DNA of 64,000 bases from a virus, in IMG/VR virus record IMGVR_UViG_3300021963_000067, positions 30,778 through 94,777 of that record. One strand, 5' to 3'. Below, piece after piece: positions 8,803 to 62,253 of this stretch (positions are counted from its first letter, which is position 1; the number at the start of each line of letters is the position of its first letter). A program made the translations under genes and the position numbers. The notes beneath the pieces are model-generated. The model did not search any database. It was not told the origin of the DNA and saw nothing but the letters and a program-made list of their open reading frames with translations.

Positions 8803-9563
8803 ATGGTAACTAACTCGCCACCGTCGAGATAGATACAAGATCCGTTTATATAACTTGACCTATCAGAAGCTAAAAACAAAACACTATCTGCTACTTCTTT
8901 AGGTTCTAAAATTCGACCTATAGGAAATCTTGCTTTGGCTTTTTCTAATTCTTCCTCTATTGTTGTATTGTTCATTTTACTATGAACTTCTAATTGACGT
9001 GTTAACATATCTGTATTAGTGGCGACAGGATTTACGCAATTAATTCGAATGCCTTTACCGACATAAACGTTGGCCATTCCCATACTGGAAAGAATTAAAG
9101 CTGCATTAGCAGCGCCGCCTGTTAAGTGCGAAGCTACAGCTACCTTGCCACCGTAGCCAATAACATTTACAATAGATCCGGACTTCATTACTTCAAGGGC
9201 TGCATACATTGAATTAATATAGGTAAAAAATTTTGATTGCATTGCATCAAGATAGTTATGAGAGTCAACTTCTAGTGGAGCCACTTTTTTAGCAGCACCT
9301 GCACAATTTACTAATACATCAATAGGACCATTATTTTCTACTGCGTTCTGTACCATTATCGATGCTTGATCTCGATCTTTGAGATCAACTTGAATAATAT
9401 GAACATTTCCTAACAATTTTTTAGCATTGGAAAGATGTTCAATATTTCTCGAAGCAATAGTAACTTTTGCACCTTCTTCTAAAAAAGATTCAGCGCAGGC
9501 AAATCCAATACCTTGACTTCCGCCTGTAATTAAAACGTGTTTATTTTTGAGGTGTAAGTCCAT
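8799..9563 (-). CDS. SDR-family protein lacking the catalytic Tyr-Lys pair
   Basis: 254 residues with the NAD(P)-binding TGGSQGIG (13-20), LVNCAGAA and the C-terminal LYLDGG-type end, so the Rossmann fold and tetramer tail are intact. Where classical SDRs have YxxxK, this protein reads SHLTGGAANAALI, with neither Tyr nor Lys. It may act by another mechanism or serve as a binding or structural subunit. The start overlaps the upstream oxygenase gene by 34 bases, so the two are co-transcribed. Confidence 0.85.
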   Translation of the reverse strand: MDLHLKNKHVLITGGSQGIGFACAESFLEEGAKVTIASRNIEHLSNAKKLLGNVHIIQVDLKDRDQASIMVQNAVENNGPIDVLVNCAGAAKKVAPLEVDSHNYLDAMQSKFFTYINSMYAALEVMKSGSIVNVIGYGGKVAVASHLTGGAANAALILSSMGMANVYVGKGIRINCVNPVATNTDMLTRQLEVHSKMNNTTIEEELEKAKARFPIGRILEPKEVADSVLFLASDRSSYINGSCIYLDGGELVTI

Positions 9564-10168
9564 GTTATATGTTCCGGTGGAGTATCTCTACTAATTTGAA
9601 TTGCAAGCCTGGGTCCTTTTACATTTTCAACTGAATGTAAAATATTTGCATGTAGGCATCCCCACTTGCGTAGGGGCAATCTAACTCGATCAATTTCTTC
9701 TACACGATCATAACTATCAATGGTGGCGTGTGGGTCAAAATTTGATCTTAGATCTGGACGCACAATGTCTCGTCCTTTTTCTCTGTACCAAACAGTTTCG
9801 ACATTATCACCACCTAAGTCTAAAAGGTATTGCACGGTAAAGTTTCTACTGGCATCAACGTGAGGAGCCAACGCAGGTCCAACATTATCAAATATGGATA
9901 TTCCGCACCCCTTGGGTTCTTGTTGAAAGTATTCCCGTACCCAGTCTTCAAATTCTGTGCTGATCGCATATCTATGTGTGCCTGCGGTAGTAAATGTAGA
10001 TCCATCTTTGGCTGTAATGGTTCTATATTGATAGTCGCTGTATCCAGGCAATTGTTTAAGGGCGTTAACTCTATTTTGTTCTGCACGATCCTCCAAGGCA
10101 GTATAGGCAGCATCTATAATCGATTGCGGGGGATCAGGAAGGTCAAGATAACCGTAGGTAAACATCAC
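9530..10168 (-). CDS. 2OG-Fe(II) oxygenase-like protein, family A copy 1
   Basis: 212 residues. The metal motif is APHVDASRNF (H-x-D), the distal His and Arg are in ANILHSVENVKGPRLAIQIS. Close paralogues lie at 31913 (nearly the same length) and 11126 (more divergent). Family A starts with FTYGYLDLPDPP-type sequence. It sits between the SDR and a periplasmic binding protein, overlapping both. Substrate unknown; hydroxylation of a small molecule or peptide is the family expectation. Confidence 0.78.
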   Translation of the reverse strand: MMFTYGYLDLPDPPQSIIDAAYTALEDRAEQNRVNALKQLPGYSDYQYRTITAKDGSTFTTAGTHRYAISTEFEDWVREYFQQEPKGCGISIFDNVGPALAPHVDASRNFTVQYLLDLGGDNVETVWYREKGRDIVRPDLRSNFDPHATIDSYDRVEEIDRVRLPLRKWGCLHANILHSVENVKGPRLAIQISRDTPPEHITWTYTSKINTF

Positions 10169-11118
10169 TGTTGCGCCTTATAGAATTTCTCAACAACAGG
10201 ATTCCAGATTTTAATTTGACGATCAACATAACGATCACCTTGCTCTGGAGTACCATCGTAGGCCTGTACTGCTCTTGTCTTAAATTGTTCCCGAACTTCT
10301 GGATCCTTAAGAGCATCTCTATATACTTTGTTTAGATAGCTGATAATGTGTCTTGGTGTTCCCGCCGGAGCATAAACTCCGTGAAAGTTAGAAGCGATAA
10401 AATCTGGAACTATGTCTTTGAACAATGGAGTTGTTGGATATTGTTCTAATCTTTGCTCAGTGCTAAATGCAATCGGTTTAACCTTGCCAGCTTGAACCAT
10501 AGACAATGCATCGCTAGAACTTGATCCGATAAAGGCAAGTTGTCCAGAACTTAGATCCATCAAGACTTGTGGAGTACTTTTATATGGAACCGCAGTGGCT
10601 TCAGTTTGTGCATGGGACAATATCTTTGATATAAAAAGATTACACATATTATAAGCACACCCGTATGAAAATTTATTTGGATTTTTCTTAACGTCGGCAA
10701 GTAAATCGGATAACGTGTTGTATTTGCTATCTGCCGCTACGTATATTCCTTGAGGAGTAATAACAGTCAATGACACTGTAGCAAAATTTTCTCTTGGAAT
10801 CCATCCAGTTGGTTTCATCAATGGGTTCATAACCACAGGAGCATTATCTGTTCCTAACAGCGTTAATCCGTCCGGTTTAGCTTCTGCTACTTCTCTTGCT
10901 CCTATAGTGGCAAATGCACCCGGCTTGTTGCTAACCACAATGTTTAATCCTGTATTGGCTCTAACTCTAGCTGCCAACATTCTACTAAATGTATCTGCTC
11001 CGCCTCCCGCACCGTAGGGAACAACCACTGTTATAGTTTGTCCTTTAAGTTCAGCAGGCATTTCTGCAAATGTAATACTACTAAAAAATAGCAAAAATAA
11101 AACAGTTAATTTTTTCAT
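10165..11118 (-). CDS. Tripartite-tricarboxylate-type (TctC/Bug) solute-binding protein 1
   Basis: 317 residues with a clear signal peptide (MKKLTVLFLLFFSSITFAE) and the TctC/Bug hallmarks ITVVVPYGAGGGADTFSR, VVSNKPGAFATIG, PDGLTLLGTDNA and VPYKSTPQVLMDL. These proteins capture carboxylic acids in the periplasm and pass them to TctA/TctB. No membrane subunit is encoded in the window, so it must use host permeases, act as a sensor or scavenger, or do something else. It lies between two family A oxygenase genes. Typical of betaproteobacteria, and unusual in a phage. Confidence 0.93.
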   Translation of the reverse strand: MKKLTVLFLLFFSSITFAEMPAELKGQTITVVVPYGAGGGADTFSRMLAARVRANTGLNIVVSNKPGAFATIGAREVAEAKPDGLTLLGTDNAPVVMNPLMKPTGWIPRENFATVSLTVITPQGIYVAADSKYNTLSDLLADVKKNPNKFSYGCAYNMCNLFISKILSHAQTEATAVPYKSTPQVLMDLSSGQLAFIGSSSSDALSMVQAGKVKPIAFSTEQRLEQYPTTPLFKDIVPDFIASNFHGVYAPAGTPRHIISYLNKVYRDALKDPEVREQFKTRAVQAYDGTPEQGDRYVDRQIKIWNPVVEKFYKAQQ

Positions 11119-11125
11119 AATGATC

Positions 11126-11716
11126 TCATTTAAATTTAAAAGGTAAATCCATAGTTCCGATTTGAATACTGGTTCTAGGACCAGTTACATCAGTTATAGC
11201 ATGAATGATGCTGGTGTTAATAACAAACCACTGGTTCATTGGCCACTTGACTGCATCAAATTCTACAAGTTCGTCCATGTTATTGAACACACGATGTTCT
11301 AACGGCCATTCTGTTGCATGACCTGGTAGCTTGTAAAATCTAGTCCTACTATCTTCACCGCCACGTTCAATCATGTACCAAATTGCCCAGCGTCGGCTGT
11401 TGTCAATATGCGCACCATGTAGGGGACTTTTTCCTTCGCTTCTGCGAACCGTAGCATTAACAAAATCTTCAACGATGTTGTCCTTGACCCATTGGTCAAA
11501 GTCTTCTCCGATTTCGTACCCCACTTGATAACGGCTAGAATATTCTTCGCCTTCCAAAACTACAGTTCGATCTACATGTACTTGGGCACCACCAGGATAG
11601 TATCCTGTGGTAATATTTTTGTGTTTCTCTTTGCCTTCATTGGCAATTGTAATTGCTCGATCTATAAAGTGCTGAGGGGGATGTGGTAATCCCTCGATTG
11701 GCATCCAGGTAAACAT
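11126..11716 (-). CDS. 2OG-Fe(II) oxygenase-like protein, family A copy 2
   Basis: 196 residues from ATG 11716, chosen because a Shine-Dalgarno (AAAGGAATAGC) precedes it; a longer in-frame start at 11932 would run into the divergent gene at 11780. The metal site is GAHIDNSRRW (H-x-D) and the distal region is NTSIIHAITDVTGPRTSIQI. It is the most divergent of the three family A copies and lies just upstream of the binding-protein gene, with an 7-base gap. Confidence 0.78.
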   Translation of the reverse strand: MFTWMPIEGLPHPPQHFIDRAITIANEGKEKHKNITTGYYPGGAQVHVDRTVVLEGEEYSSRYQVGYEIGEDFDQWVKDNIVEDFVNATVRRSEGKSPLHGAHIDNSRRWAIWYMIERGGEDSRTRFYKLPGHATEWPLEHRVFNNMDELVEFDAVKWPMNQWFVINTSIIHAITDVTGPRTSIQIGTMDLPFKFK

Positions 11717-11739
11717 TGCTATTCCTTTTATTGGCCTGT

Positions 11740-11747
11740 TATTTATT
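11740..11747 (-). promoter_or_regulatory. T4-type late promoter octamer (AATAAATA)
   Basis: Lies 23 bases before ATG 11716, leaving room for a normal leader with a ribosome binding site. It would drive the 11716-to-8799 operon (oxygenase, binding protein, oxygenase, SDR). Confidence 0.55.
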
Positions 11748-11763
11748 AGGCTCTGCTGCTGGC

Positions 11764-11771
11764 GATAAATA
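11764..11771 (+). promoter_or_regulatory. T4-type late promoter octamer (GATAAATA)
   Basis: Lies 8 bases before ATG 11780 and heads the five-gene plus-strand operon ending at 15778. Confidence 0.6.
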
Positions 11772-11779
11772 TTTTCCTT

Positions 11780-13426
11780 ATGCATATCCCCCCACAAATT
11801 ATAATTCTTTCGGACCCTTATCAATTGGATACAGTGAGGTACATGGGTCCATACGTTGTTAAAAATCATCTCAAGCAGGCCGGATTTGACGTTGTTGTAA
11901 TTGATTACTTCACTCGTTTTGAAAATGATCAAGAGTTTTTTGATTATTTGGAAAATTTTGTTAGCGATAGACTACAGGCCATAATGGTTAGTACAACATT
12001 TACCTATTCAAGTCCTACTGACTTTGCATGGGCTCGATCCGAAATGAGCAAACATATAACTACTGAAACTGCTGAAACCAAACAAGGTTGGTGGGATTAT
12101 GTAAAAGCCAGTTCCCTATATCTGTGGAAGGGTAATAACGAGGATATGAATTCTTGGTTTTCGGGTGTAAGGAATATTTTATCCAAAAAGAATTCTCAAG
12201 CTAAAATTGTCTTAGGAGGAGAAAGACTAAATTGGATTTATAAATTTGATCCAAGGGCTCTCCCAGATGACTATGCTCTAAAACAAGTAGATCTCTGCAT
12301 CCTAGGCAGAGTTGATTTATTCATAGGTGATCTTATGAAACGATTTACAACAGGATCCCTAGGACAATATGCTCTTAACATTCACAAAAAGAATGATATA
12401 GATTATTACATTCCGCCTCCGCATTTACAGTATAGTCATCACAAGGATGATATTCCGGACAGCACATTTGGTATAGAAGATGCTGTGCTTCCAGGAGAAT
12501 GGTTGCCATTTGAAAATGCTAGAGGTTGTGCATTTAATTGCAAGTATTGTAATTATGATAAAGGGCATAGTCAAAAAAAATCCATGGAACAAACTCGTGC
12601 AGAATTTATGCGTAATTATGAATTGCATGGCACAACAGGCTACAGCTTTACCTGCGAATGTTTCAACGATGACTATCAATATGTCCGAGACTTTCATGCA
12701 ATGGTTAAGACTTTGCCTTTTGTTTTAGAATGGAACGGTTATGCCCGATTTGATCTTAGCCACAAGTATGATGATCTTGCAGAACTTACTGTAGACAGTG
12801 GTGGCCGCAGTTTGATTATAGGCATAGAAACTCTAAATTGGGAAGTAGGAAAGAAAATGGGTCGCGGCCTAAAGCCAGAGAGAGTATTAGAACTTGCTGA
12901 CCAGTATAAACGTGCAGGAGAAAAATACGGAGGTATACATCTCAAGGGCTGTTTCATTATAGGCCTTCCAGGCGAGACTATTGAAAGTCAAACTGCCACA
13001 AACAAATTTATCAGTGAACAAACGTATTTTAATGCTGTTCTAGGCAATGTATTAGAAGTCATGCCCTACGAAGATGACCTATCGGGCGTTTTTGATTTTG
13101 CTGGTATAAATGTCAATCCAAAAAAATATGGATTTGAAGAACTATCATTTGATCCTTATTACTGGAAACATCATACCATGGACGTCTATCAAGCTATAGA
13201 CATGAATTATCAATTTAACGAAGCCAACAAGCTCAACCCGTATACATACAAGTACAACAACGGCAAACGAAATGTCAATCTATTCTTTTATTCTGCCATG
13301 CGAAGTCTAGGATACAACCATGCAGAATCAATGAATAAGTTTAACAACGTTCCCGAAGTCTACGATCAATGCCGTGATAAGATAAAACGTTATCACGATT
13401 TACTTTTAAAAATATGGTGTGAATAA
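11780..13426 (+). CDS. B12-binding-type radical SAM protein
   Basis: 548 residues. An extended N-terminal cobalamin-type Rossmann domain (about 1-210) is followed by the cluster motif C250-x3-C254-x2-C257 (CAFNCKYC) and a barrel with IIGIETLNWEVGKKMGRG. It resembles the radical SAM enzymes of natural-product and phosphonate methylation. It overlaps the next gene by one base (TAATG), so the operon is tightly coupled. The substrate may be the product of the PP-loop or SDR neighbours, but the sequence does not say. Confidence 0.9.
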   Translation: MHIPPQIIILSDPYQLDTVRYMGPYVVKNHLKQAGFDVVVIDYFTRFENDQEFFDYLENFVSDRLQAIMVSTTFTYSSPTDFAWARSEMSKHITTETAETKQGWWDYVKASSLYLWKGNNEDMNSWFSGVRNILSKKNSQAKIVLGGERLNWIYKFDPRALPDDYALKQVDLCILGRVDLFIGDLMKRFTTGSLGQYALNIHKKNDIDYYIPPPHLQYSHHKDDIPDSTFGIEDAVLPGEWLPFENARGCAFNCKYCNYDKGHSQKKSMEQTRAEFMRNYELHGTTGYSFTCECFNDDYQYVRDFHAMVKTLPFVLEWNGYARFDLSHKYDDLAELTVDSGGRSLIIGIETLNWEVGKKMGRGLKPERVLELADQYKRAGEKYGGIHLKGCFIIGLPGETIESQTATNKFISEQTYFNAVLGNVLEVMPYEDDLSGVFDFAGINVNPKKYGFEELSFDPYYWKHHTMDVYQAIDMNYQFNEANKLNPYTYKYNNGKRNVNLFFYSAMRSLGYNHAESMNKFNNVPEVYDQCRDKIKRYHDLLLKIWCE

Positions 13427-51639: not shown

Positions 51640-51914
51640 TTTCCGCTCTTGTATTTTAAACTAAACATTAGAACATCTTTTTCATCGTGAAAATAGAAGG
51701 CTGCAATTTCATCCCAGTGATAACTAGCATCGCTGACATCTGTGATGTCAAACCATACATAGCTTCGACAGTTAGCAAGGCACCACTTCTTAATTTTCCA
51801 GAAGGGTTCGCCTGCTGCCTTAGCATCGTTATCTGTAATAAGCACCTGATGACATTGTTGCAGAACATCATCAGGCGGCTTAAACTGCTTCCATTCGTCG
51901 CTGTAAGAGTACAT
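51636..51914 (-). CDS. Tandem-family small protein (MFxLKW type) 8
   Basis: 92 residues. IKKWCLANCRSYVWFDITDV and FYFHDEKDVLMFSLKYKSG carry both family elements. First member by transcription order, directly after the phosphoesterase gene (one-base overlap). Confidence 0.77.
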   Translation of the reverse strand: MYSYSDEWKQFKPPDDVLQQCHQVLITDNDAKAAGEPFWKIKKWCLANCRSYVWFDITDVSDASYHWDEIAAFYFHDEKDVLMFSLKYKSGK

Positions 51915-52777
51915 TAGACTTCCAGCAAAATATTAGGATTCCAGCCAGTCTCTTCACTGTATCCTTCGTTTTCATAACCTCTAGGATTACATACAACTCG
52001 AGTACTACCAATGACATAGTCAAAAGGATGATGAGTATGTCCATGAGTCCACAATTTGATCTGTGGATGATCAAGAATAAAATCACTTAGGTCGCTATGA
52101 TAGCCACCGTTCATGATGTAGTCATGTGCATACTGCGGATGGCAACTCATATGGCTAGGAGTATGATGTCCTACTACCACAAACTTCTGCTCCTGTGGAT
52201 AGCCGTCCATTACCGTCCTAAAGTATTGCAGTGTTTTGCGATGACGATCTGCAATATCAGCAGGCTTGAGAGATCGATAGCCCGCTTGATCATGTCGAAT
52301 AATTCTAAAATCGTTCATCATGTCCGCAAGTGCATGAAGTGTAAATGGATCATGTTTGTTGCAGTCAGTCCAAAGTGTTGCACCCATGAACACAATGTCG
52401 TTAATCACTTTGACATCATTTTCTAAGAAATAGATGTTAGGATATTTGGCACATTCTTCACGCAGATGATCAATGCTGGCAAAAAACTTGCCGTTATAAA
52501 ATTCGTGATTGCCAGCAACGTAGATAACGTGTGGGAATTGAAAGCTACAACGTTTTAGGAAGTCGCGGAAACGCTGTGCATTTGCCTGTCTACGGCCTAG
52601 ACCTGTATGATTAGCAATGGCTGTTTGATCCGCTGTATTCGCAGGCTCCGGATGATCGTGAAGATCCTGTGCAACCATAATGTCGCCGGAGAGAATTAGT
52701 AGATCATATTCAGCATCGTTGGGAATCATAACGTCTGAGAACTCTAGGTGCAGATCTGAAACCAATTTAATTTTCAT
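51914..52777 (-). CDS. Calcineurin-like metallophosphoesterase
   Basis: 287 residues. SDLHLEF (D8, H10), LILSGDIM, YVAGNHEFYNG, VVGHHTPS and LWTHGHTHHPFD are the full set of metal ligands. Longer than the 25038 enzyme and of the UDP-2,3-diacylglucosamine-hydrolase/ICC-like kind common in phages. First gene of the long early operon, 24 bases below the -10 box. Substrate unknown. Confidence 0.93.
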   Translation of the reverse strand: MKIKLVSDLHLEFSDVMIPNDAEYDLLILSGDIMVAQDLHDHPEPANTADQTAIANHTGLGRRQANAQRFRDFLKRCSFQFPHVIYVAGNHEFYNGKFFASIDHLREECAKYPNIYFLENDVKVINDIVFMGATLWTDCNKHDPFTLHALADMMNDFRIIRHDQAGYRSLKPADIADRHRKTLQYFRTVMDGYPQEQKFVVVGHHTPSHMSCHPQYAHDYIMNGGYHSDLSDFILDHPQIKLWTHGHTHHPFDYVIGSTRVVCNPRGYENEGYSEETGWNPNILLEV

Positions 52778-52870: not shown

Positions 52871-53152
52871 ATGGGCGATATTTTCAAAATCATAGGCGAT
52901 TTAGGTATGCCTGTAGCCGCAGCACTAGCAGGCGGGTATTTTGTATACTTAACTATTAAACTATTATTACAAGGTGTACTAGGGTCGATTAACGGCATGA
53001 AGGGCATTATTATTGCTCTAGACAATCGTGTAAAAACCATGAATCACGATGTTATCCGTATTGACACAATTGTGTCCAATGCGCTAGGCCTACGTCCAGA
53101 TGCAGATCGTATTGCTCGTGCAGATGGTAAAAATGATGCAAGGCGTGATTAA
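52871..53152 (+). CDS. Small membrane protein, paralogue of the 53907 protein
   Basis: 93 residues. One membrane helix (MPVAAALAGGYFVYLTIKLL), an amphipathic stretch (IIIALDNRVKTMNHDVIRID) and a charged tail. The 53907 protein has the same plan (LIALIDRIRMLDNDLIRLNQ). The plan (N-terminal TM, cytoplasmic coil) is holin- or accessory-like, but lysis function is not shown. First of the plus-strand membrane set. Confidence 0.75.
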   Translation: MGDIFKIIGDLGMPVAAALAGGYFVYLTIKLLLQGVLGSINGMKGIIIALDNRVKTMNHDVIRIDTIVSNALGLRPDADRIARADGKNDARRD

Positions 53153-53906: not shown

Positions 53907-54230
53907 ATGGACGTCGTAGAATTAGTAAACAAGTATGGATTTCCAATTGTCATGGCTGTTGGAATGGGCTTCATTATTAAGTATGTTTGGGAATGGGCCA
54001 CTAAAGAAGTTAAGCCAGTTATCGGAGAAGCAAACACTGTGTTGATTGCTCTCATTGACCGCATCCGCATGTTGGACAACGATTTGATTCGATTGAATCA
54101 AAAGGTCAATACTGTCTTGCACCTACGTGGTAAGACAATCGAGTTTGAACGAGTGGAAGCAGAAGCACAGATTAACATGCAAACCAAGAAGACCGAAGAC
54201 GAGAAATCAGCATCAGCCGGCGAAAGTTAA
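53907..54230 (+). CDS. Membrane protein, paralogue of the 52871 protein
   Basis: 107 residues. Membrane helix FPIVMAVGMGFIIKYVWEWA, then ANTVLIALIDRIRMLDNDLI and RLNQKVNTVL, and a long acidic-basic tail ending SASAGES. Paralogy with 52871 extends over about 60 residues. AAGGAAAAATT ribosome site. Confidence 0.75.
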   Translation: MDVVELVNKYGFPIVMAVGMGFIIKYVWEWATKEVKPVIGEANTVLIALIDRIRMLDNDLIRLNQKVNTVLHLRGKTIEFERVEAEAQINMQTKKTEDEKSASAGES

Positions 54231-54248: not shown

Positions 54249-54407
54249 ATGGTAAATGCAGTTGCTTCGCTATTATTAGCGGGCATGTTATCAAATGAGC
54301 CTCGGTGTATCAAATGGACCTGGACCGGCGATGTCTACAATCGCAAAGTGGTATGTGTAGAATGGACAAAGCCACAGCCCAAAGATAAGGATCCTAAGAA
54401 AACATGA
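54249..54407 (+). CDS. Small exported-type protein with paired cysteines
   Basis: 52 residues with a hydrophobic N-terminus (VNAVASLLLAGMLS) and EPRCIKWTWTGDVYNRKVVC followed by VEWTKP; the WTWxGDVYNRKVVCxxW block is one I recall from T4-like marine phages. The two Cys could form a periplasmic disulfide. Very strong AGGAGGGG ribosome site; ATGA overlap with the next gene. Confidence 0.72.
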   Translation: MVNAVASLLLAGMLSNEPRCIKWTWTGDVYNRKVVCVEWTKPQPKDKDPKKT

Positions 54408-54889
54408 TTGATCCTATTACACTTGGCATTGCTTTCACTGCCGCACAACAATCAGTGGGTTATATTAAAAAGGCCATCGCTCTAGGCAAAGACGTTAACA
54501 GCCTTTACGGACAATTTGCCAAGTTCTTTGAAAACAGCGATAAGATTCATAGTGCTAATGTGGCAGCACAAAACAGCAAAAAGATTCTCACTGATGGACA
54601 GATTAGAGCATTGTCAATACAGATTGCCATGCAGAGTAAAGCTCTACGTGATGCTGAAAAAGATCTAAAAGAAATGTTGATATATTCAGGCAACAAAGAT
54701 GTTTGGGATCAAATGATGGCCGAACGTGTACGCATGTACAAAGAACGGGCCAAGCTAGAAGCGGACATAAAAAATGCTAGGATTCAAGCACAGTCCGACA
54801 TGATAGATAGACTACTTATAGGTACAAGTTTCATGGCAATAGCTATTCCTACTGTGCTTTTCACTTTTGCTATGATAACAAGAAGTTAA
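54404..54889 (+). CDS. Coiled-coil protein with C-terminal membrane helix
   Basis: 161 residues. DPITLGIAFTAAQQSVGYIK at the start, a long coiled region with KALRDAEKDLKEMLIYSGNK and KLEADIKNARIQAQSDMIDR, and a terminal membrane helix (LIGTSFMAIAIPTVLFTFAM). Type-II or tail-anchored topology. The family is known to me from marine T4-like phages without an assigned role. It ends one base before the cyclase gene (tail to tail). Confidence 0.77.
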   Translation: MIDPITLGIAFTAAQQSVGYIKKAIALGKDVNSLYGQFAKFFENSDKIHSANVAAQNSKKILTDGQIRALSIQIAMQSKALRDAEKDLKEMLIYSGNKDVWDQMMAERVRMYKERAKLEADIKNARIQAQSDMIDRLLIGTSFMAIAIPTVLFTFAMITRS

Positions 54890-56944
54890 TTACTTTTCGT
54901 GAGCTACAAACTCACCGTTCCAGTTATCCGGTAATTTTTGTTCTTTCATAAACGCACAGCGTTCAATCCACATTTCGTAATACGTGTCCATTTGTCCGCC
55001 AAAGGTGCCTGTCATCTTAGCACAAATTGCCGCAGCCTCGTCAAACTTTTTCTGTTTGTACAAGTCGTGCATTACATCATGTGTTATCTTATCTCTAGTG
55101 TAATCTTCACCGCGAGTACGTAATGCTGTATAGATCAAATCTGCTACTGTCTTACCTTTTGGTTGTAAATTGTCCAATAGCAAGTAAAAGAAATCATCTT
55201 TAGTCCTGTTGTATGTTTCAGCGCCGATAATACATAACACACCGTATGCTTTACAACGTGCTTCTAAACGTGCGGCTGTTGAAACCATGTCGCCTAAAAT
55301 GTCATACCCGTGTCTTGCTGTACTACCCATTTCACCGATGTAGCCATCGCCGGTATTACAACCCCACCCCATTGCAGCTGGCGGTAAACCTTGTGCTTCT
55401 TTTTCTTTGGTAAAGGCAGCTACAGCATCTAACATCTTTAGACCCACTTCAACAATAGTGCGAGCATGATTAGGATCATCTAGTGGAGCACCGTGCATGT
55501 GCATACTTGCATCACCTACATACTTGATAACCATACCGTTGGCATCGATGATTGGAATAGTAATAGCATCCATATATCCGTTCATATACTGTGCCAATCC
55601 TTCTGGACCACCGTTGCCTGGCCTGTCAAAGTATTCGCCGATAGGAGTAAAGCCGCGTAAGTCTGAGAACATGACTGATACATCTTTCTTAACGCCTTTC
55701 TTGATTAAGTCTGGATTCTCCTGCAACAGTCTAACAACTTCGGGAGAGCAGTAGCCAGCAAACTGTTTCTTGATTGCCTGTTTCTGCAAGAACTCACTTA
55801 CAAACTTAACGCCATAAGCATGAAGCAGAACAAGAGTGAGGCCAACAGCAAGAGCAGTGATGTCAACGAGCCAAAGATTATTCGTATACAGATATTGAGA
55901 AACAGGATACAAAACACCAAGAGCGATAACGCCACTAGCAAGTCCAACATAAGTCCACCTCGTTAAGAAAAGTAAAGCTATGCCCAATGCTGCTAGGGCT
56001 ATGAGTTCAGCACCATCGGCCCAATCGGGTCTCTGGATAGTAATGCCGTTAACCATTGTGCCAATTACTGCGGCCTGCACGTCTTGTGGAAATACAGCGC
56101 CTTTGCTTGTAGGTAAAGGATTGGCAATGCCTGCTGCCGTTGGACCTACAATAACAATAGCGCCGTGAAAGTCTTTTGGCAGGTTCATTAGACTTGCTTG
56201 TTTATTCTCTTGACTCCAATCGATCCACACACGACCCAATGGATCTGTAGTAATAGGGCCAAACTTTGGAATACGCATTTTCTCAACACCGCCTTCGTTG
56301 AGTTTAACTTGGAAAGTAGAATCCCCAGCAGCCACACGTAGAGCTTCCATCGATATACTAGGATATAGTTTTCCGTCTACTGATACTACTAACGGCAATC
56401 TTCGATTAACACCGTCTACTTCAGGAAGTGTACTAACAATACCAATGCCTGCGGCAGCGTTTTCTAATGAAGGAATATTAGCAATTAATCCGGGATACTG
56501 TACGATTTGATCTAGATGTTCTGGCCCTAGTACCGCTGATCCAGGATTGCGAGGTTTATTTTTTGTTCGATCACTAGGAACTGATCCTAATACAACTGGA
56601 TATTGTTTTAGGGCATTTGCGAGAACAGCATCGCCACCAGTGCGATCAGACTCAGCCATGATAACATTGAGCACAACAAGGCCAGCGCCACGATCATAAA
56701 GATCTTTAATAATTTTTGCATACTCTGCCCTCGGTAAAGGCCATTGACCGTATTTGTCCAATGCTGCTTCATCTATGTTTACTGCATAGATGTTGTTAGC
56801 TGTAGGAGCTTTTTGTGTAATTAGTGTGTCAAAGTAGCGTAGTCTTACACTTTCTACAAAGACAGGATCAGCAATTCTTATACTTAAAATAAGTGCCAAT
56901 GTTAAAAGGGCAGTCCAAGGACTAGTTAGGATTTTTTTCAGCAT
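54890..56944 (-). CDS. CHASE2-domain class III adenylate/guanylate cyclase
   Basis: 684 residues. An N-terminal membrane helix leads into a periplasmic CHASE2 sensor (RYFDTLI, YAVNIDEAALDKYGQWPLPR, GSAVLGPEHLDQ), three membrane helices (about 315-390) and a cytoplasmic cyclase: VSVMFSDLRGFTPIGE (metal Asp), IKYVGDASMHMHG and GYDILGDMVSTAARLEA. It should turn an outside signal into cAMP or cGMP. The late octamer ends 4 bases before its ATG, and the gene directly follows the curli genes, suggesting a joint role. Confidence 0.95.
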   Translation of the reverse strand: MLKKILTSPWTALLTLALILSIRIADPVFVESVRLRYFDTLITQKAPTANNIYAVNIDEAALDKYGQWPLPRAEYAKIIKDLYDRGAGLVVLNVIMAESDRTGGDAVLANALKQYPVVLGSVPSDRTKNKPRNPGSAVLGPEHLDQIVQYPGLIANIPSLENAAAGIGIVSTLPEVDGVNRRLPLVVSVDGKLYPSISMEALRVAAGDSTFQVKLNEGGVEKMRIPKFGPITTDPLGRVWIDWSQENKQASLMNLPKDFHGAIVIVGPTAAGIANPLPTSKGAVFPQDVQAAVIGTMVNGITIQRPDWADGAELIALAALGIALLFLTRWTYVGLASGVIALGVLYPVSQYLYTNNLWLVDITALAVGLTLVLLHAYGVKFVSEFLQKQAIKKQFAGYCSPEVVRLLQENPDLIKKGVKKDVSVMFSDLRGFTPIGEYFDRPGNGGPEGLAQYMNGYMDAITIPIIDANGMVIKYVGDASMHMHGAPLDDPNHARTIVEVGLKMLDAVAAFTKEKEAQGLPPAAMGWGCNTGDGYIGEMGSTARHGYDILGDMVSTAARLEARCKAYGVLCIIGAETYNRTKDDFFYLLLDNLQPKGKTVADLIYTALRTRGEDYTRDKITHDVMHDLYKQKKFDEAAAICAKMTGTFGGQMDTYYEMWIERCAFMKEQKLPDNWNGEFVAHEK

Positions 56945-56948
56945 GAAA

Positions 56949-56956
56949 TATTTATG
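56949..56956 (-). promoter_or_regulatory. T4-type late promoter octamer (CATAAATA)
   Basis: Lies 4 bases before ATG 56944, so the cyclase can be transcribed separately from the curli genes as a leaderless mRNA. Confidence 0.65.
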
Positions 56957-56961
56957 CTGAT

Positions 56962-58356
56962 TTACTGTCCTTGATTTACTGTAATTTTAGCACATCCGCC
57001 TGCTGTAGTACAATTATGCGTAATTGAATAATAATTTTGAGTGCTGCCGCTTTGTGTTAGACTTAGATCAGTAGGTAGTCCGCTTAGATTAACTTTGGCC
57101 ATATGACCAGCACTACCTTGCTGCGTAATATCAACGTTCTTGTTGCCTCCGCTGAGTACAACTTCGGCATAATGACTGCCACTGTCTTTCTGTGTTATTA
57201 TCAAACTATTGTTGTTTCCACTAACATCGGCAAACACTGCTTTAGCACCGGCTGTGCTAGTTTGTTGTAGTGTTGCAGTATTAAAATTACCCACTACTTT
57301 TAAATCGACATAGTTTACTTCAGTGGTAGCATTACCATGTTGTGTAACGTTGATATCATTACTTAGACCATTACCGTAATAGTTTACATAATTGTTTCTA
57401 GTGCCTGTTTGTTGTACTGCAATTGTATTTTGATTGCCAATCTGTTCAATGAAAACTTTTGAGTCTGCGGTAGTTCTATTAATAAATGAAACTACTTGTG
57501 CGTGTTTTACGGCATCGGCATTAAATGGAGTTGCGCTACCCCCGCAACATAAAGGAGGAGGTCCAGTAGGAGTAGTAGAAGTAGTAGGTGCAGTTGATCC
57601 TGCGTTAGGTGCAATTGGACCAAACGACTGTCCGTTAAGCTCAGTTGTTCCTTGTATTTCATCTATAAACAACAAGGGGCTCAACGCAGTATCACCTAGA
57701 TTGAAAGTGGCAAATCCTAGCACGTATGTTCCAGTTTCAGAAACAGTAAACGTTGCCAATTGCCAACCTGTTGATCCATATGAACCTGTAGCATAGTTGC
57801 CTGTTCCTGGATTAGTGAATCCTAATAGCGCATATCGCTGTTGACTGTTGTTTAGTGTTGGTACAATACTGGCATTAGTAGAATGTGTTAGAGTCATCAT
57901 ACTACCATCGTTGTATGGTGTGTAGTCTGTTGACAAATAGTTCCATGCGAACGAATAAGTGGTGCCTGCTTGCAAAGTTATTGTTCTTTTGATCCAAGAT
58001 GCTGTTGTTGGGGTTGGATCGCCACTGCCGCCGTTTTGGCTTTGATAAGTCAAATAATTTCTAATGGCGGTGTTTTCTGATGACGTTAATCCTAGGCTAG
58101 TTGTAGCGGCGTCGAATTGTGTAGCACCCCCTGGATATAGTTGTCCCATGTAAGTTCCGTAAGGTTTGATCGTCCATGTTTTACCACCACCATAGGTAAT
58201 ATTTTGTATACCTGTGCTAATACTTACATCACCACTAGAAGATGTCCATCCTGATAAATTGCCTGTTTCAAATCCTGTTCCTTGTGCAGATAAATCTTGA
58301 CTAAGTGCAATACTGGTCGTAAAAGCGAAAAATAAAAACTGTAGTAGTCGTTTCAT
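56962..58356 (-). CDS. Exported curlin-repeat protein with lectin-like N-terminal domain
   Basis: 464 residues with a signal peptide (MKRLLQFLFFAFTTSIALSQ). Residues 28-240 form a beta-sandwich-like domain (GTGFETGNLSGWTSSSGDV, TYVLGFATFNLGDTALSPLL), as in PEP-CTERM/lectin-type proteins. A Pro/Thr linker with PPLCCGG follows. Residues 290-464 hold curlin-type units spaced 20-25 residues apart (VFIEQIGNQNTIAVQQTG, INVTQHGN, VDITQQGS, LSLTQSGS). Probably a nucleator or adhesin of the amyloid fibre. Confidence 0.85.
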   Translation of the reverse strand: MKRLLQFLFFAFTTSIALSQDLSAQGTGFETGNLSGWTSSSGDVSISTGIQNITYGGGKTWTIKPYGTYMGQLYPGGATQFDAATTSLGLTSSENTAIRNYLTYQSQNGGSGDPTPTTASWIKRTITLQAGTTYSFAWNYLSTDYTPYNDGSMMTLTHSTNASIVPTLNNSQQRYALLGFTNPGTGNYATGSYGSTGWQLATFTVSETGTYVLGFATFNLGDTALSPLLFIDEIQGTTELNGQSFGPIAPNAGSTAPTTSTTPTGPPPLCCGGSATPFNADAVKHAQVVSFINRTTADSKVFIEQIGNQNTIAVQQTGTRNNYVNYYGNGLSNDINVTQHGNATTEVNYVDLKVVGNFNTATLQQTSTAGAKAVFADVSGNNNSLIITQKDSGSHYAEVVLSGGNKNVDITQQGSAGHMAKVNLSGLPTDLSLTQSGSTQNYYSITHNCTTAGGCAKITVNQGQ

Positions 58357-59447
58357 GGTCTTCTTAACACCCCTGTCTTTTGCACGATGTTTACTACATT
58401 ACCACCCGGATCGCCACTACCTACTATGGTAAACGCATATTGATCGTTGTGGCTAATCGCAACAAATGTATTTGAATCGTAGCCTGTAGTTTTAACTTCC
58501 GCATAGTGATCTATGTTGCTACGATAGGCTGTACCTTTACCCTTACTTTGAATATCAGCATTATCATTTTTCTCCCAGGCTACGCAAACACTAGTACTCG
58601 AATTGCATCCTTTCTTACCATCGGAAAATGTATCAGGTAGTAATGTTGCTGCTGGTTGTTCTTTGGCTTTTTCAATTCTCTGTGCCATTTGGCGTTGCGC
58701 ATCAGCTTCCATTTCTTCCATTTCTTGATCACGTTTTGATTTACCCGCTTCTTTGATAGCGTTGACAATTTCAAGAGGTTTAACAATAATAAGATTATTG
58801 CCAATTTTACTCTCAACGGTATTAACAATAACTGGAGGAGTTGGTATTATCGAACTACTCATTACATAGGTTGCTTCGAATGCCTTATCTAGAATTACGG
58901 TACCTGCATCATTGCTGACAATAATCTTGCCTACCTTACAACGATTTTCTTCAAGCTCGTAGGTCTTTACATCTTTCTCATCTTTACAACTAGGAACTAG
59001 CATAACAAGACTTTGTCCCGCTTCATCTACAGTCATGGTGAAATCAGTACCACGTACAGCCACTGTGGCCGTAGGAGTTTTGATGTTTACCTGTTGCGGA
59101 TTATTTTTAGCAATTTGTCCGCTAGCATATCGGACAGTGCCCATCCCCACTTTGAGCGCAAGTTTGCCTGCATCTGACTTCTTAGGATCGAATACAAAAT
59201 CGTCAATAAGCAATCTGCTGTTTTCTGTAATCTTAACTTTAGTATCATCTTTAAAAGTTATATTACTTGAACATGCGCCGGTAACATAGGTATCCATGCT
59301 TTCAATATCGGCACCCTTGGCCCCGGACATTTTCTTTTTGTTGCGCTCAACTTCACAGGCAGTGCCTTTGGTTTCTGAGACCGTGCCAATGCCAGCCCAA
59401 GAAGGGCTGGCAACTGTTAGCAGTAGGGCTAACAATAAGACACGCAT
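58353..59447 (-). CDS. Exported FecR-domain protein
   Basis: 364 residues with a signal peptide (MRVLLLALLLTVASPSWA). FecR-type core: SNITFKDDTKVKITENSRLL, then KVGMGTVRYASGQIA and IKTPTATVAVRGTDFTMTVD, the most conserved FecR line. A charged Glu/Met/Gln helix (DQEMEEMEADAQRQMAQRIE) follows, then a C-terminal beta part resembling single curlin units. Could anchor or sense the fibre in the periplasm. Overlaps the 56962 gene by 4 bases. Confidence 0.85.
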   Translation of the reverse strand: MRVLLLALLLTVASPSWAGIGTVSETKGTACEVERNKKKMSGAKGADIESMDTYVTGACSSNITFKDDTKVKITENSRLLIDDFVFDPKKSDAGKLALKVGMGTVRYASGQIAKNNPQQVNIKTPTATVAVRGTDFTMTVDEAGQSLVMLVPSCKDEKDVKTYELEENRCKVGKIIVSNDAGTVILDKAFEATYVMSSSIIPTPPVIVNTVESKIGNNLIIVKPLEIVNAIKEAGKSKRDQEMEEMEADAQRQMAQRIEKAKEQPAATLLPDTFSDGKKGCNSSTSVCVAWEKNDNADIQSKGKGTAYRSNIDHYAEVKTTGYDSNTFVAISHNDQYAFTIVGSGDPGGNVVNIVQKTGVLRRP

Positions 59448-59449
59448 AA

Positions 59450-60265
59450 TTATCTCGCAATCGCTGTAGCAGGTGATACAATAGTTGAACTACTTGTACG
59501 AACTGTGATAGTGTTGTTGCTACCTTGTGTTTGGATATTAACTGTAGTATCGTTAGTACCCTGTTGCTGTGTAGTAATGCTGTTGTAATCGCCTGATGTA
59601 TTCATAGCAAGAACGTGGCCGTTAGCACCGGCTGCATCTGTTTGTTGGATATTGAATACGTTAGCATTACCTAAAACAGTATTGGTTACAGTTCCTCGGC
59701 TACTTAGCAAACTGCTAGTAACTTGGTTATTGTCGCCATCTAATGATGTAGTAGTATTGATATTGCTACCGACCAAATCTTGAATGATCATATTATTGTT
59801 TCCAATAATTTGTTCGGTGATAACATTAAGATTATTGGTTGCATTGTTAGCATTACCAACAGTCAATCTAGTTTGGTTATTGTTTCCTAACATATTAGTA
59901 GTATATTGGTTATTTGTACCTCTAATATTATATTGACTACTATTAGCATTACCAGTTTGAGTAATATTCACAGTGTTTGTACTACCAGTGATAGTACCGT
60001 AGTTTGTAGCACTGGGTGCATCCGGCGTAAGTGTGGTAATACCAGTGCCGGCAACTGCTGTTGCTACGGTAGTTGTAACGCCACCAACGTTGTTGGTTCC
60101 ACCAACCTGTTCGATAGTAATAGTATTGCTACTACCGACCTGCTCGATATAGACCTTATTAGGTCCAGTAGCGGCTTGTGCCCAAATTGTACTAGAGCCA
60201 ACAACCATTGCTACTGCGAGTAATTTTCTCGACAACTCGCCAACGCCTGTCTTTCTATATTTCAT
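59450..60265 (-). CDS. Curlin (CsgA/CsgB-like) amyloid subunit
   Basis: 271 residues. A signal region (LLAVAMVVGSSTIWAQA) and at least eight curlin units: VYIEQVGSSNTITIEQVG, VNITQTGNANSSQYNI, RGTNNQYTTNMLGNNNQ, FNIQQTDAAG, ITTQQQGTNDTTVNIQTQ, with the spaced Gln/Asn/Gly ladder typical of CsgA (SxxxxxQxGxxNxAxxxQ). Expected to be secreted through CsgG and to polymerise outside. Longer than E. coli CsgA (151), with a Thr/Ala insertion at about 65-90. Confidence 0.88.
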   Translation of the reverse strand: MKYRKTGVGELSRKLLAVAMVVGSSTIWAQAATGPNKVYIEQVGSSNTITIEQVGGTNNVGGVTTTVATAVAGTGITTLTPDAPSATNYGTITGSTNTVNITQTGNANSSQYNIRGTNNQYTTNMLGNNNQTRLTVGNANNATNNLNVITEQIIGNNNMIIQDLVGSNINTTTSLDGDNNQVTSSLLSSRGTVTNTVLGNANVFNIQQTDAAGANGHVLAMNTSGDYNSITTQQQGTNDTTVNIQTQGSNNTITVRTSSSTIVSPATAIAR

Positions 60266-60458
60266 TTTTCTTTAATGTCGGTTTATTATTCGCCGACAAG
60301 TTCCTTGGTCTTTGACCTGTAATTATACTGTTTCTCGTATCTACTCCTCTCTGTAGATGTATTTCATATAAATTTATTTAATTGCTACTGTCTATAAATT
60401 AAATGCCGCTGTTAAAATTTCAACATGTAAATTTTTCAACATGTAAAAATATCAACAC
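60266..60458 (-). other. Intergenic region between csgG and the curlin gene
   Basis: 193 bases without a gene. It holds the hairpin TGTCGG/CCGACA near 60277-60299, a TATAAT-like box (60322-60327) without a -35, an ATTAAATA octamer near 60373 and a direct repeat (60418-60447). Probably carries a separate promoter for the abundant curlin subunit. Confidence 0.5.
60418..60447. repeat. Direct repeat, two copies of a 14-base unit
   Basis: TTTCAACATGTAAA occurs at 60418-60431 and again at 60434-60447, about 16 bases apart, and contains the palindrome ACATGT. The spacing of about one and a half helical turns suits a cooperative regulator site, but no protein can be named. Confidence 0.55.
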
Positions 60459-61730
60459 TTATGGTTTAATTGGACTTAACTTGTCAACAAGAACAAATCC
60501 TTTCTTACCATCTCGAGTCTGTACTTTAACCCAATTATTATCAACTTCAATTATCTTTACTTCTGTACCCTTCAAAAATAACCATTGCTTTGTGCTATCT
60601 TCGGTGGCCTTAACTCTAACATAAAACGGCTCTTTAAAAAATTTCACATCGCCTATTTTATATTCTTCTGTTGGCTTTGCTGGGTTTTCTGCTGTTGGCG
60701 CTGCTGCTGGCGCTGGCGGAACAACTGCTGTAGTAGGCTTGACATCATTTTTAGGTTCCTCCTTCTTTACTTCTTGTTTGACTTCTGGTGCGGGCTCAGG
60801 AGCTTTGCTTGCTCTAGGGCTTTCTGTGTTGCTGGGCTGTAATGGTGCGGGTGCAACTTCTGGGGCTCTTTGGGCCGGGGCTTGTGATTGAACCAACTCA
60901 TTTCTTTCCTCCTTGAAACTCCAGTGTCCTTTGCGGGCGCCTTCATTAATGGTTTGAATTACCGCAGCCTGCACAGCTACATCGATGGCACGGTTGATAC
61001 TTTCATTGATACTTCCACCGACTTCACCTTCTAGTGCATTTGCTCCAGCACCGAACTGTGTACCGTCATCAACAAATCTCAATAATGTCATCTTGTCCAT
61101 GTAGCTTAGGACTGTTTTAGTTATTGTAACTGTGGTCAAGATTTCGCCTGTACTTACAGAAACTGTACGCAAGGTAATGGTTACAGTATCACTTTGATAT
61201 TGTGTGCTTGCACCGATGCCAAAAATTCTTATACCACTACCACCAGTTAGTGTATTGCTATCATAGCCAACAATACCGCCTTCCATGATAATACCAGCGA
61301 ACATCATTGGGGGCAACATTTTGGCATCGCGGCCTTGATACTGCTCACGCATCTGACGAATCATCTGACGTTCTTTAATTAGGTTTTCTAGGCCTACACG
61401 TTCTAGCACTGTGAACCAACGAGCTTCGCCTACATCTTGTAGGGCTTTGATCAAATAGTTTTCAGCACCCTGTGTAACTGCTGAACTTAGTGAAGCAATT
61501 AGGGGTTGGCTTTTTCGCTGTCCAGTTAAATCACGGAAACCGTAAACAGCAACAGGTAAAGGGCCGCCTTGCGGTGGACGTAGTTTATTCTGATCCTTTT
61601 TTAGGAACTTGCTGGCTTCGACTTTAGGCTCGTCAAATTGATTGCCTGTTATTTTTTCTCTTAGTGCTGAACTACTAGCACAGCCAGATAAGACCGCTAT
61701 TACTGCTAGGGATATTATTGTCTGTTTCAT
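60459..61730 (-). CDS. csgG: CsgG outer-membrane curli secretion channel with C-terminal SH3 extension
   Basis: 423 residues. Lipoprotein signal with lipobox LSGCASS. The CsgG core (about 50-275) has LPVAVYGFRDLTGQRK, ARWFTVLERVGLENLIKERQ, MMFAGIIMEGGIVGYDSNT, GIRIFGIGASTQYQSDTVTI and LRTVSVSTGEI, as in E. coli CsgG (277 residues). A Pro/Ala/Lys linker of about 80 residues and an SH3-like domain (WLFLKGTEVKIIEVDNNWVK) are added at the end. The core forms the nonameric secretion pore; the tail may bind peptidoglycan. Two bases after csgF. Confidence 0.95.
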   Translation of the reverse strand: MKQTIISLAVIAVLSGCASSSALREKITGNQFDEPKVEASKFLKKDQNKLRPPQGGPLPVAVYGFRDLTGQRKSQPLIASLSSAVTQGAENYLIKALQDVGEARWFTVLERVGLENLIKERQMIRQMREQYQGRDAKMLPPMMFAGIIMEGGIVGYDSNTLTGGSGIRIFGIGASTQYQSDTVTITLRTVSVSTGEILTTVTITKTVLSYMDKMTLLRFVDDGTQFGAGANALEGEVGGSINESINRAIDVAVQAAVIQTINEGARKGHWSFKEERNELVQSQAPAQRAPEVAPAPLQPSNTESPRASKAPEPAPEVKQEVKKEEPKNDVKPTTAVVPPAPAAAPTAENPAKPTEEYKIGDVKFFKEPFYVRVKATEDSTKQWLFLKGTEVKIIEVDNNWVKVQTRDGKKGFVLVDKLSPIKP

Positions 61731-61732
61731 AA

Positions 61733-62215
61733 TTATCCGCCAAATCCAAACGTACCACTTGGTACAATCATTTCTGTATACTGTCTCGGGTCAAGTACGT
61801 TTTCAATTCTAACAACAATATTAGTACCAACTACTTTCCAAGTTATATTATTTCCAGCAACTTCCATTTGGCCACAATTTCCAGCACTATTCACGGTGCA
61901 TACAGGAACACCGTTAACGCCAAATAAACTATCTGTAATCTGCTTGGCTAACTGTGAATAGATACGGCTTTCTAAGTTTGCTTGAAACTTAGCTTGAGGA
62001 GTGTTTAATGCATCGCTCTCTGCTTTTGCTTTTAAGGCGTCTGCCGCAGCCTTGTTTTTGTCTTTAGCTTGTGTTTCTAATTGATAAAGTGTTAAGACGT
62101 GTGAACTGTAGCCGATACCTGAAAAGGACGGACTACTAAAACTATGTTGTAATTCTGCACCACTGGCAGTCAACGCTATTGTTGCCAATAAGGTGGCTGT
62201 TATATACTTAACCAT
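61733..62215 (-). CDS. csgF: CsgF curli assembly protein
   Basis: 160 residues with a signal peptide (VKYITATLLATIALTASG). The mature start ELQHSFSSPSFSGIGYSSHV corresponds to the CsgF constriction peptide that inserts in the CsgG pore, followed by an ESRIYSQLAKQITDSLFG helix and a C-terminal beta domain. CsgF couples secretion to fibre nucleation at the cell surface. First gene of the curli operon, below a late octamer and the CCGGGAGCGAA leader element. Confidence 0.92.
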   Translation of the reverse strand: MVKYITATLLATIALTASGAELQHSFSSPSFSGIGYSSHVLTLYQLETQAKDKNKAAADALKAKAESDALNTPQAKFQANLESRIYSQLAKQITDSLFGVNGVPVCTVNSAGNCGQMEVAGNNITWKVVGTNIVVRIENVLDPRQYTEMIVPSGTFGFGG

Positions 62216-62245
62216 CGATTCGCTCCCGGTTATACATGTTATATG

Positions 62246-62253
62246 TATTTAGA
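62246..62253 (-). promoter_or_regulatory. T4-type late promoter octamer (TCTAAATA)
   Basis: Lies 30 bases before ATG 62215; the leader shares CATATAACAT and CCGGGAGCGAA with that of the 52871 gene on the other strand. Confidence 0.6.

Follow-up and report, generated by a model that had tools for sequence, protein, structure and literature searches.

Why a bacteriophage should carry the genes of a bacterial amyloid has been debated since 2020, with amyloid clumping, an outer-membrane pore and superinfection among the ideas put forward. We addressed this question for a curli cassette in a 64,000-nucleotide stretch of viral DNA (hereafter the window; IMG/VR record IMGVR_UViG_3300021963_000067, positions 30,778 to 94,777; coordinates below are those of the window unless another locus is named). 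Six genes lie in order on its minus strand: csgF, csgG, a first curlin (curlin-1), a FecR-domain protein gene, a second curlin (curlin-2) and a CHASE2-cyclase. This arrangement had been proposed in a first-pass annotation made from the DNA letters and was confirmed by open reading frames (ORFs) and Pfam; the gene identities were likewise borne out by Pfam, the repeat pattern and relatives. The spacing is operon-like, with gaps of 2 bases between csgF and csgG, 193 between csgG and curlin-1, 2 between curlin-1 and the FecR gene and 17 between curlin-2 and the cyclase, and an overlap of 4 between the FecR gene and curlin-2. The most informative feature of the cassette is the exchangeable head of curlin-2. 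The first-pass annotation mentioned neither this non-curlin head nor an SH3 domain on CsgG nor two linked small membrane genes.

Judged from its sequence, curlin-2 (464 residues; 56962–58356, minus strand) is a fusion of an exchangeable N-terminal head with a conserved C-terminal curlin-repeat core. A signal peptide is followed by the head, a CCGG linker and the core (residues 286–464; 56962–57501, minus strand), which is conserved whatever the head. Taken alone, the window protein is weak in Pfam Curlin_rpt (0.079), but its relatives exceed the cut-off. Its core holds 12 matches to a loose repeat pattern against a shuffle mean of 0.81, a number reached by 0 of 1000 shuffles, and is modelled as alternating short strands with a predicted local distance difference test score (pLDDT) of about 70–88 from residue 310 on. 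Across relatives the last ~165 residues are conserved and the N-terminal part varies by family; the heads form 10 clusters, one of which consists of curlin repeats only. Head domains recognized by Pfam in these relatives include PA14 (up to 2.3e-11), with the Pelagibacter phage HTVC008M among its carriers, and F5/8 type C (F5/8C; up to 9.1e-12), found in 19 of 35 proteins scanned.

The distribution of these heads is mosaic. Mapped onto a tree of CsgG plus FecR, head type changed 38 times over 83 distinct rows, compared with 45–51 times when labels were shuffled, although labels of 'none' in this count may partly reflect broken ORFs; among the 66 distinct backbones with a head, there were 26 changes against 29–35. 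Exchange is also visible between individual loci: phages that are 94–98% identical in CsgG, CsgF and FecR can have different heads, their DNA similarity being lost at the signal peptide and regained at the curlin core. CsgF, CsgG, curlin-1 and FecR are 94–97% identical between loci L042 and L033, whose heads are unrelated, and their DNA matches at 86% until about 50 bases into curlin-2, with the match resuming (78%) at the core. Another pair, L047 and L032, differs by head loss, and the heads are swapped in two more (L158/L159 and L057/L066). F5/8C modules of 83–93% identity sit behind unrelated first modules.

The head in the window (about residues 23–262; 57571–58290, minus strand), itself of an exchanged kind, is predicted to be a jelly roll of carbohydrate-binding type. 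It was modelled alone from 11 sequences with AlphaFold (pLDDT 70; predicted template modelling score, pTM, 0.77). The best fold match in the PDB was the carbohydrate-binding module (CBM) CBM61, at 9.7e-5, with the gingipain K1 (Kgp) adhesin domain, a porphyran-binding CBM and CBM16 among the others. A fold search with the full curlin-2, for which the model was of low confidence, gave no useful match, and a tblastn search for the window head on known phage proteins, covering 50,697 phage records, was negative. Matches below the 90-bit cut-off were obtained to NCBIfam NF038132, a PEP-CTERM family of anchor-switching bacterial surface domains, both by the window protein (3.7e-7, 30 bits) and by the head family in the window and loci L313, L316 and L317 (1.5e-5 to 6.5e-9, 24.8–35.7 bits). 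In both cases a head family occurs on several kinds of surface anchor; here, however, the carriers are phages and a curlin-repeat tail serves as an anchor.

Heads of the same families are found on anchors other than curlin. We scanned IMG/VR with four heads (window, 'QIADSQW', 'YNAIATAY' and F5/8C), and the figures given are for the best 80, 65, 49 and 80 loci, respectively. The window head occurred in 56 curlin fusions beside csg genes, in 12 barrel-type ORFs, which are large and have ends like those of outer-membrane beta-barrels, and in 9 ORFs whose LPxTG motif precedes a hydrophobic segment and, in most of them, a basic tail. Curlin carried the 'QIADSQW' head in 61 loci, the 'YNAIATAY' head in 28 and the F5/8C head in 79, and barrel-type ORFs carried the first of these in 3 and the second in 14. 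Apart from a few truncated or unclassified ORFs, every copy that was on neither a curlin nor an LPxTG protein was barrel-type, and none of the loci kept from the four scans had a head on a tail fibre. Two loci join barrels to curli genes: csgF, csgG, curlin and FecR are followed in L314 by a head-plus-barrel gene occupying the curlin-2 slot, and such a gene lies between csgF and csgG in L313. The outer-membrane C-terminal signature was present in 24 of 24 barrel-type ORFs against 26 of 1368 control ORFs, a comparison that is partly circular because most of these ORFs were picked for an F/W ending. Six PDB profile matches to the barrels were mostly to known or designed beta-barrels, led by NalP (0.0016) and including EstA and a pair of designed transmembrane barrels. 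The LPxTG loci contain phage families for endolysin, tape measure and DNA polymerase, and two barrel contigs contain TerL.

Because the heads are swapped freely and reattached to different surface anchors, displaying the head is suggested to be the purpose of the cassette. We give an even chance to the reading that the cassette serves to display a glycan-binding adhesin head at the surface of the infected cell, curli being one of the anchors. CsgG and CsgF would form an outer-membrane pore, probably tied to peptidoglycan via the SH3 tail of CsgG, and curlin-1, the fibre subunit, and curlin-2 would both pass through it. The C-terminal repeats of curlin-2 would join the fibre, leaving its N-terminal head outside the cell as a variable business end, which phages exchange as a unit located after the signal peptide and before the core; in other phages, members of these head families are mounted on beta-barrel-type or sortase anchors. 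The likeliest targets of the head would be glycans of nearby host cells or of particles, an interaction that would keep fresh hosts close to the lysing cell; the next best reading of its function is the covering of receptors against competing phages. At the inner membrane, the CHASE2 cyclase and the FecR protein, which would lie in the periplasm, would probably act as a sensor pair, reporting the state of fibre or envelope as cyclic AMP (cAMP) to host effectors. The wider proposal, for us just as finely balanced, is that phages of Gram-negative and Gram-positive bacteria share a strategy in which the infected cell is dressed with a glycan-binding domain, exchanged as a cassette, on a curli, outer-membrane beta-barrel or LPxTG anchor; phage curli would then be one solution and not a stray biofilm operon. 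The first-pass annotation had imagined amyloid displayed late in infection, and of this idea the display is supported, whereas the late timing is something that we, too, only infer.

Several observations weigh against display of a glycan-binding head. The model of the window head is of medium confidence only (pLDDT 70), with a TM score of 0.40 by query length and 0.64 by target, and it revealed no binding site. To the circularity of the signature comparison must be added that the barrel proteins have no Pfam match at all, the autotransporter domain included. The output of the cyclase may be weak, because a Ser replaces its catalytic Asn (see below). Finally, the Methylophilales phage Melnitz, which carries the cassette, produced no clumping in culture, by cytometry or transmission electron microscopy (Buchholz et al., 2022; PMC9004378). 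The curlin-2 of Melnitz (cluster H4), however, is without a head: the part that precedes its core consists of curlin repeats alone.

Fast exchange of heads on near-constant backbones would also fit an arms race, and the alternative that survives best, although we regard it as rather unlikely, is a block to superinfection, an idea that Wittmers et al. (PMC9599517) put forward for pelagiphages. Fibres and heads would mask or occupy host surface glycans such that competitors or the phage's own progeny could not adsorb, and heads would be swapped to follow glycans or competitors. That three different types of anchor bring the window head family to the host surface agrees with this. Masking, however, needs no pumped amyloid fibre, and since none of the retained loci has a head on a tail fibre, the scans show no receptor specificity shared between the two.

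The cassette is conserved well beyond the window. In a survey of 137 viral loci from two IMG/VR scans, in which later genes were counted only where the locus had room for them, csgF preceded csgG in 137/137, curlin-1 followed in 117/117 and FecR in 104/104, a second curlin in 86 of 90 and a downstream cyclase in 61 of 73. The order is kept across T4-like jumbo phages, Kyanoviridae and podoviruses, with intact frames. The same six genes in the order seen in the window are found in HTVC008M (gp14–19) and in Melnitz (gp99–104). The first-pass annotation was right that csgG and csgF occur in a pelagiphage (PMC7029224, PMC9599517; HTVC008M record), but its view that the whole set is undescribed is refuted, because HTVC008M and Melnitz carry, and their records annotate, the identical order and PMC9599517 has described it. 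We accordingly rejected a novel gene set.

Earlier accounts of phage curli differ in what they recognized. Zaragoza-Solas et al. (2020; PMC7029224) reported csgF/csgG in a phage and suggested 'sibling capture'. Wittmers et al. (2022; PMC9599517) described CsgF, CsgG, CsgA/B, FecR, a second CsgA/B and an adenylate cyclase in pelagiphages of podo- and myo-type, for which they suggested roles in superinfection defence and in capture or clumping; the text of that paper, as searched, makes no mention of heads, PA14, adhesin or lectin domains. The window cassette shares with the pelagiphage one (HTVC008M included) the six-gene order, the FecR protein and adenylate cyclase, and the absence of CsgE, CsgC and CsgD, but differs by its jumbo-phage carrier, the SH3 domain of CsgG, the Ser in the cyclase and a different head family. 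In the HTVC008M record (L002), the FecR-domain protein and a curlin-2 with a PA14 head are entered as 'hypothetical proteins' (9560–10663 and 10638–11963, respectively). The Melnitz operon has the same order, both curlin-repeat genes included (GenBank record), and the same Asn-to-Ser change in its cyclase, but lacks a non-curlin head on curlin-2. For this phage csgA and csgB were said to be lacking (PMC9004378), although GenBank annotates two curlin-repeat proteins beside csgG (L003, 9857–12651). With the csg system of Escherichia coli (type VIII secretion) the phage cassette has the CsgG pore, CsgF and curlin repeats in common; it differs in that no CsgE was found, that FecR and a cyclase belong to the operon and that a curlin bears a large non-curlin head.

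As far as literature searches show, the jumbo-phage carriers, the modular heads and the alternative anchors appear to be new, and the range of the cassette widens beyond pelagiphages to take in jumbo phages. That heads are exchangeable and recur on further anchors suggests that selection acts on the displayed head. If this is true, phages diversify a surface protein of the infected cell much as they do tail fibres, and curlin-2 would represent a natural curli-fused binding domain, akin to those engineered for curli display. The purpose of phage curli thereby becomes testable, through the ligand of a head and the consequences of exchanging one head for another.

The genes for the secretion pore are recognized by Pfam. 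CsgF (160 residues; 61733–62215, minus strand), the secreted partner of the CsgG pore, matches PF10614 (8e-9; 36.2 bits, cut-off 25.8) and phrog_35372 (1.9e-28). CsgG (423 residues; 60459–61730, minus strand) is a lipoprotein (LSGC, with an invariant lipobox Cys17) whose outer-membrane pore spans residues 57–272 (PF03783, 2.3e-45; 154.9 bits, cut-off 20.8) and aligns with solved E. coli CsgG structures at 4e-45 (PDB match 4.3e-45). The pore is followed by a long Pro/Ala/Lys linker and a C-terminal SH3 domain (residues 370–415; 60486–60623, minus strand; PF08239, SH3_3, 6.9e-9), which was seen on CsgG in 31 fetched loci and is absent from the 280-residue CsgG of HTVC008M and Melnitz; the length of the linker could perhaps let this domain reach peptidoglycan. 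Curlin-1 (271 residues; 59450–60265, minus strand) is a secreted curlin-repeat protein (Curlin_rpt 7.1e-4; 19.9 bits, just below the cut-off of 20.7) with a repeat pattern above shuffles, and is likely the main fibre subunit. Matches to NCBIfam CsgA/CsgB were weak and below cut-off. Domains of CsgF, CsgG, FecR, CHASE2 and Guanylate_cyc all exceed curated Pfam cut-offs, and PHROGs families exist for four of the six cassette proteins.

The pore itself has been put at the centre of an alternative, for which we see little likelihood. Following the pinholin-like pore proposed for Melnitz (PMC9004378), CsgG-CsgF would be a gated outer-membrane pore that times lysis or passes molecules, the curlins being secondary. 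In its favour, the CsgE gate (PF10627) was not found in 15 related phage records, some of them fragmentary, in a search that detected the E. coli control; the first-pass annotation had also noted this absence, and CsgE is not universal in bacterial curli systems (PMC9599517). Two holin-like small membrane genes, moreover, accompany the operon. Their holin match is weak (0.005), however, and two curlin genes with signal peptide, repeats and exchanging heads, present in nearly every locus with room, would be superfluous for a bare pore.

The small membrane genes lie on the plus strand and encode paralogous proteins of 93 residues (52871–53152; homologues in 126 fetched loci) and 107 residues (53907–54230; homologues in 138), the latter matching phrog_18771 (5e-29), the holin family phrog_4898 at the value just given, and nothing in Pfam. 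They accompany the cassette across unrelated phages. In HTVC008M, Melnitz and L313 they immediately precede csgF; in the window lineage they are located past the cyclase, in convergent orientation. One or more histidine kinase genes have been reported just before csgF in pelagiphage cassettes (PMC9599517), whereas the genes that we find at that position, including the two in HTVC008M, encode membrane proteins of ~100 residues; given this size and the lack of a Pfam domain in the 107-residue protein, a histidine kinase identity is doubtful.

The remaining two genes have the appearance of a sensor. The FecR-domain protein (364 residues; 58353–59447, minus strand) matches PF04773 (2.2e-10; 41.3 bits, cut-off 24) and phrog_37870 (3.6e-73); it has a signal peptide, no apparent later membrane helix and a conserved 95-residue C-terminus. 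This last segment (58353–58640) contains weak curlin-like repeats and may dock on the fibre; a profile comparison with the curlin repeat gave a probability of 3.9% (P 0.011). No FecI-type sigma factor gene was found among the neighbours in a scan that covered part of the ORFs. The cyclase (684 residues; 54890–56944, minus strand) combines a CHASE2 sensor (PF05226, 8.1e-38) with a class III nucleotide cyclase (PF00211, Guanylate_cyc, 2.8e-14). The metal-binding D428 and D478, the substrate pair K474/D548 and the transition-state R559 are all present, and the position of the catalytic, transition-state Asn is occupied by Ser555. In class III cyclases a Lys/Asp substrate pair suggests ATP, and loss of the transition-state Asn lowers activity but need not abolish it. 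Among 72 readable sequences, 46 have Ser at this position, Melnitz included, and 26 Asn, namely HTVC008M, the Hyphomonas cyclase described below and 24 others.

These residues bear on a further alternative, again of low probability in our view, in which the cyclase is the main output: FecR-CHASE2 would report the state of envelope or fibre and raise cAMP, reprogramming host metabolism late, with the fibre as the sensor. FecR and the CHASE2-cyclase do accompany curli in most loci, and the metal, lysine and arginine sites are conserved. Against this, the Ser replaces Asn in the majority of readable cyclases just given, 12 loci with room have no downstream cyclase, and no cyclic-nucleotide-binding domain was found in 15 phage records. 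This last result speaks against a phage-encoded cAMP effector, and the signal would therefore need host effectors. The suggestion of the first-pass annotation that the cyclase relays outside conditions into the cell would be subject to the same two points, the Ser in the active site and the dependence on host effectors. An ORF of ~106 residues before csgF (L066, 8107–8433; similar in L057, L063, L179 and L206) resembles the C-terminal tail of the cyclase, and several of the loci with this ORF have no cyclase downstream of the operon. Variable inserts of 3–4.5 kb separate curlin-2 from the cyclase in L028, L032, L042, L059, L158 and L179.

Outside phages, a CsgG search of genomes yielded one secure bacterial operon, in a 705-kb contig of Hyphomonas sp. 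TMED17 (L081), with csgF, csgG, curlin, FecR and CHASE2-cyclase but no recognized second curlin; phage curli is therefore not alone in including FecR and a cyclase. Although this related operon would suit a bacterial cargo picked up and passed among phages with no function specific to infection, we consider that very improbable, given the order kept across unrelated phages with intact frames, the roughly 7.3 kb of coding capacity retained and the expression of pelagiphage versions in metatranscriptomes (PMC9599517). A FecR-profile scan of 385 genomes of the class of L081 found matches in 75, none as close as L081; 30 loci from that scan were fetched, with flanks of only about 1.5 kb, and no other held a curli gene. 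Five contigs from metagenome-assembled genomes (L079, L085, L132, L139 and L145) contain all or part of the phage cassette and resemble phage contigs that had been binned among bacteria, most clearly L132 and L145, which have phage-like neighbours (gp41- and clamp-loader-like, by eye). L144 is ambiguous, being flanked by alternative oxidase and SdhB-like genes as well as the phage small membrane genes. An unannotated record of 1,499 bases, OR851715.1 (Salmonella phage S.Kent 1-2-1), encodes a CsgG relative and is possibly host DNA.

The window itself most likely represents part of the genome of a T4-like jumbo phage, with relatives of up to 372 kb, and not of a pelagimyophage. It belongs to a virus record of 94,777 bases, has 27 tRNAs and phage PHROGs matches, and is syntenic with contigs of 280 and 353 kb that encode a gp23-type capsid protein; these features rule out a segment of bacterial chromosome, a possibility that the first-pass annotation had left in view. 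The gp23 of the 353-kb relative is 65–70% identical to those of the jumbo phages Phosso, PA5oct, GAP32, CBB and XaC1, so that the relatives of the window place it outside the pelagiphage lineages. Scans for promoters and terminators gave results no better than shuffles. The assignment to T4-like jumbo phages rests on the gene adjoining the cyclase, which the window shares with the 280- and 353-kb contigs, and on the capsid protein that those contigs encode. The adjoining gene encodes a protein of 161 residues with a C-terminal hydrophobic segment (54404–54889, plus strand; its stop is 1 base from that of the cyclase) and serves as a lineage marker, with 88–94% identity beside the operon in the 280-, 353- and 56-kb contigs, and 91–94% at the same position in the two largest of these. 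On the same side, a calcineurin-like phosphoesterase gene (phrog_1649; 51914–52777) adjoins the cassette.

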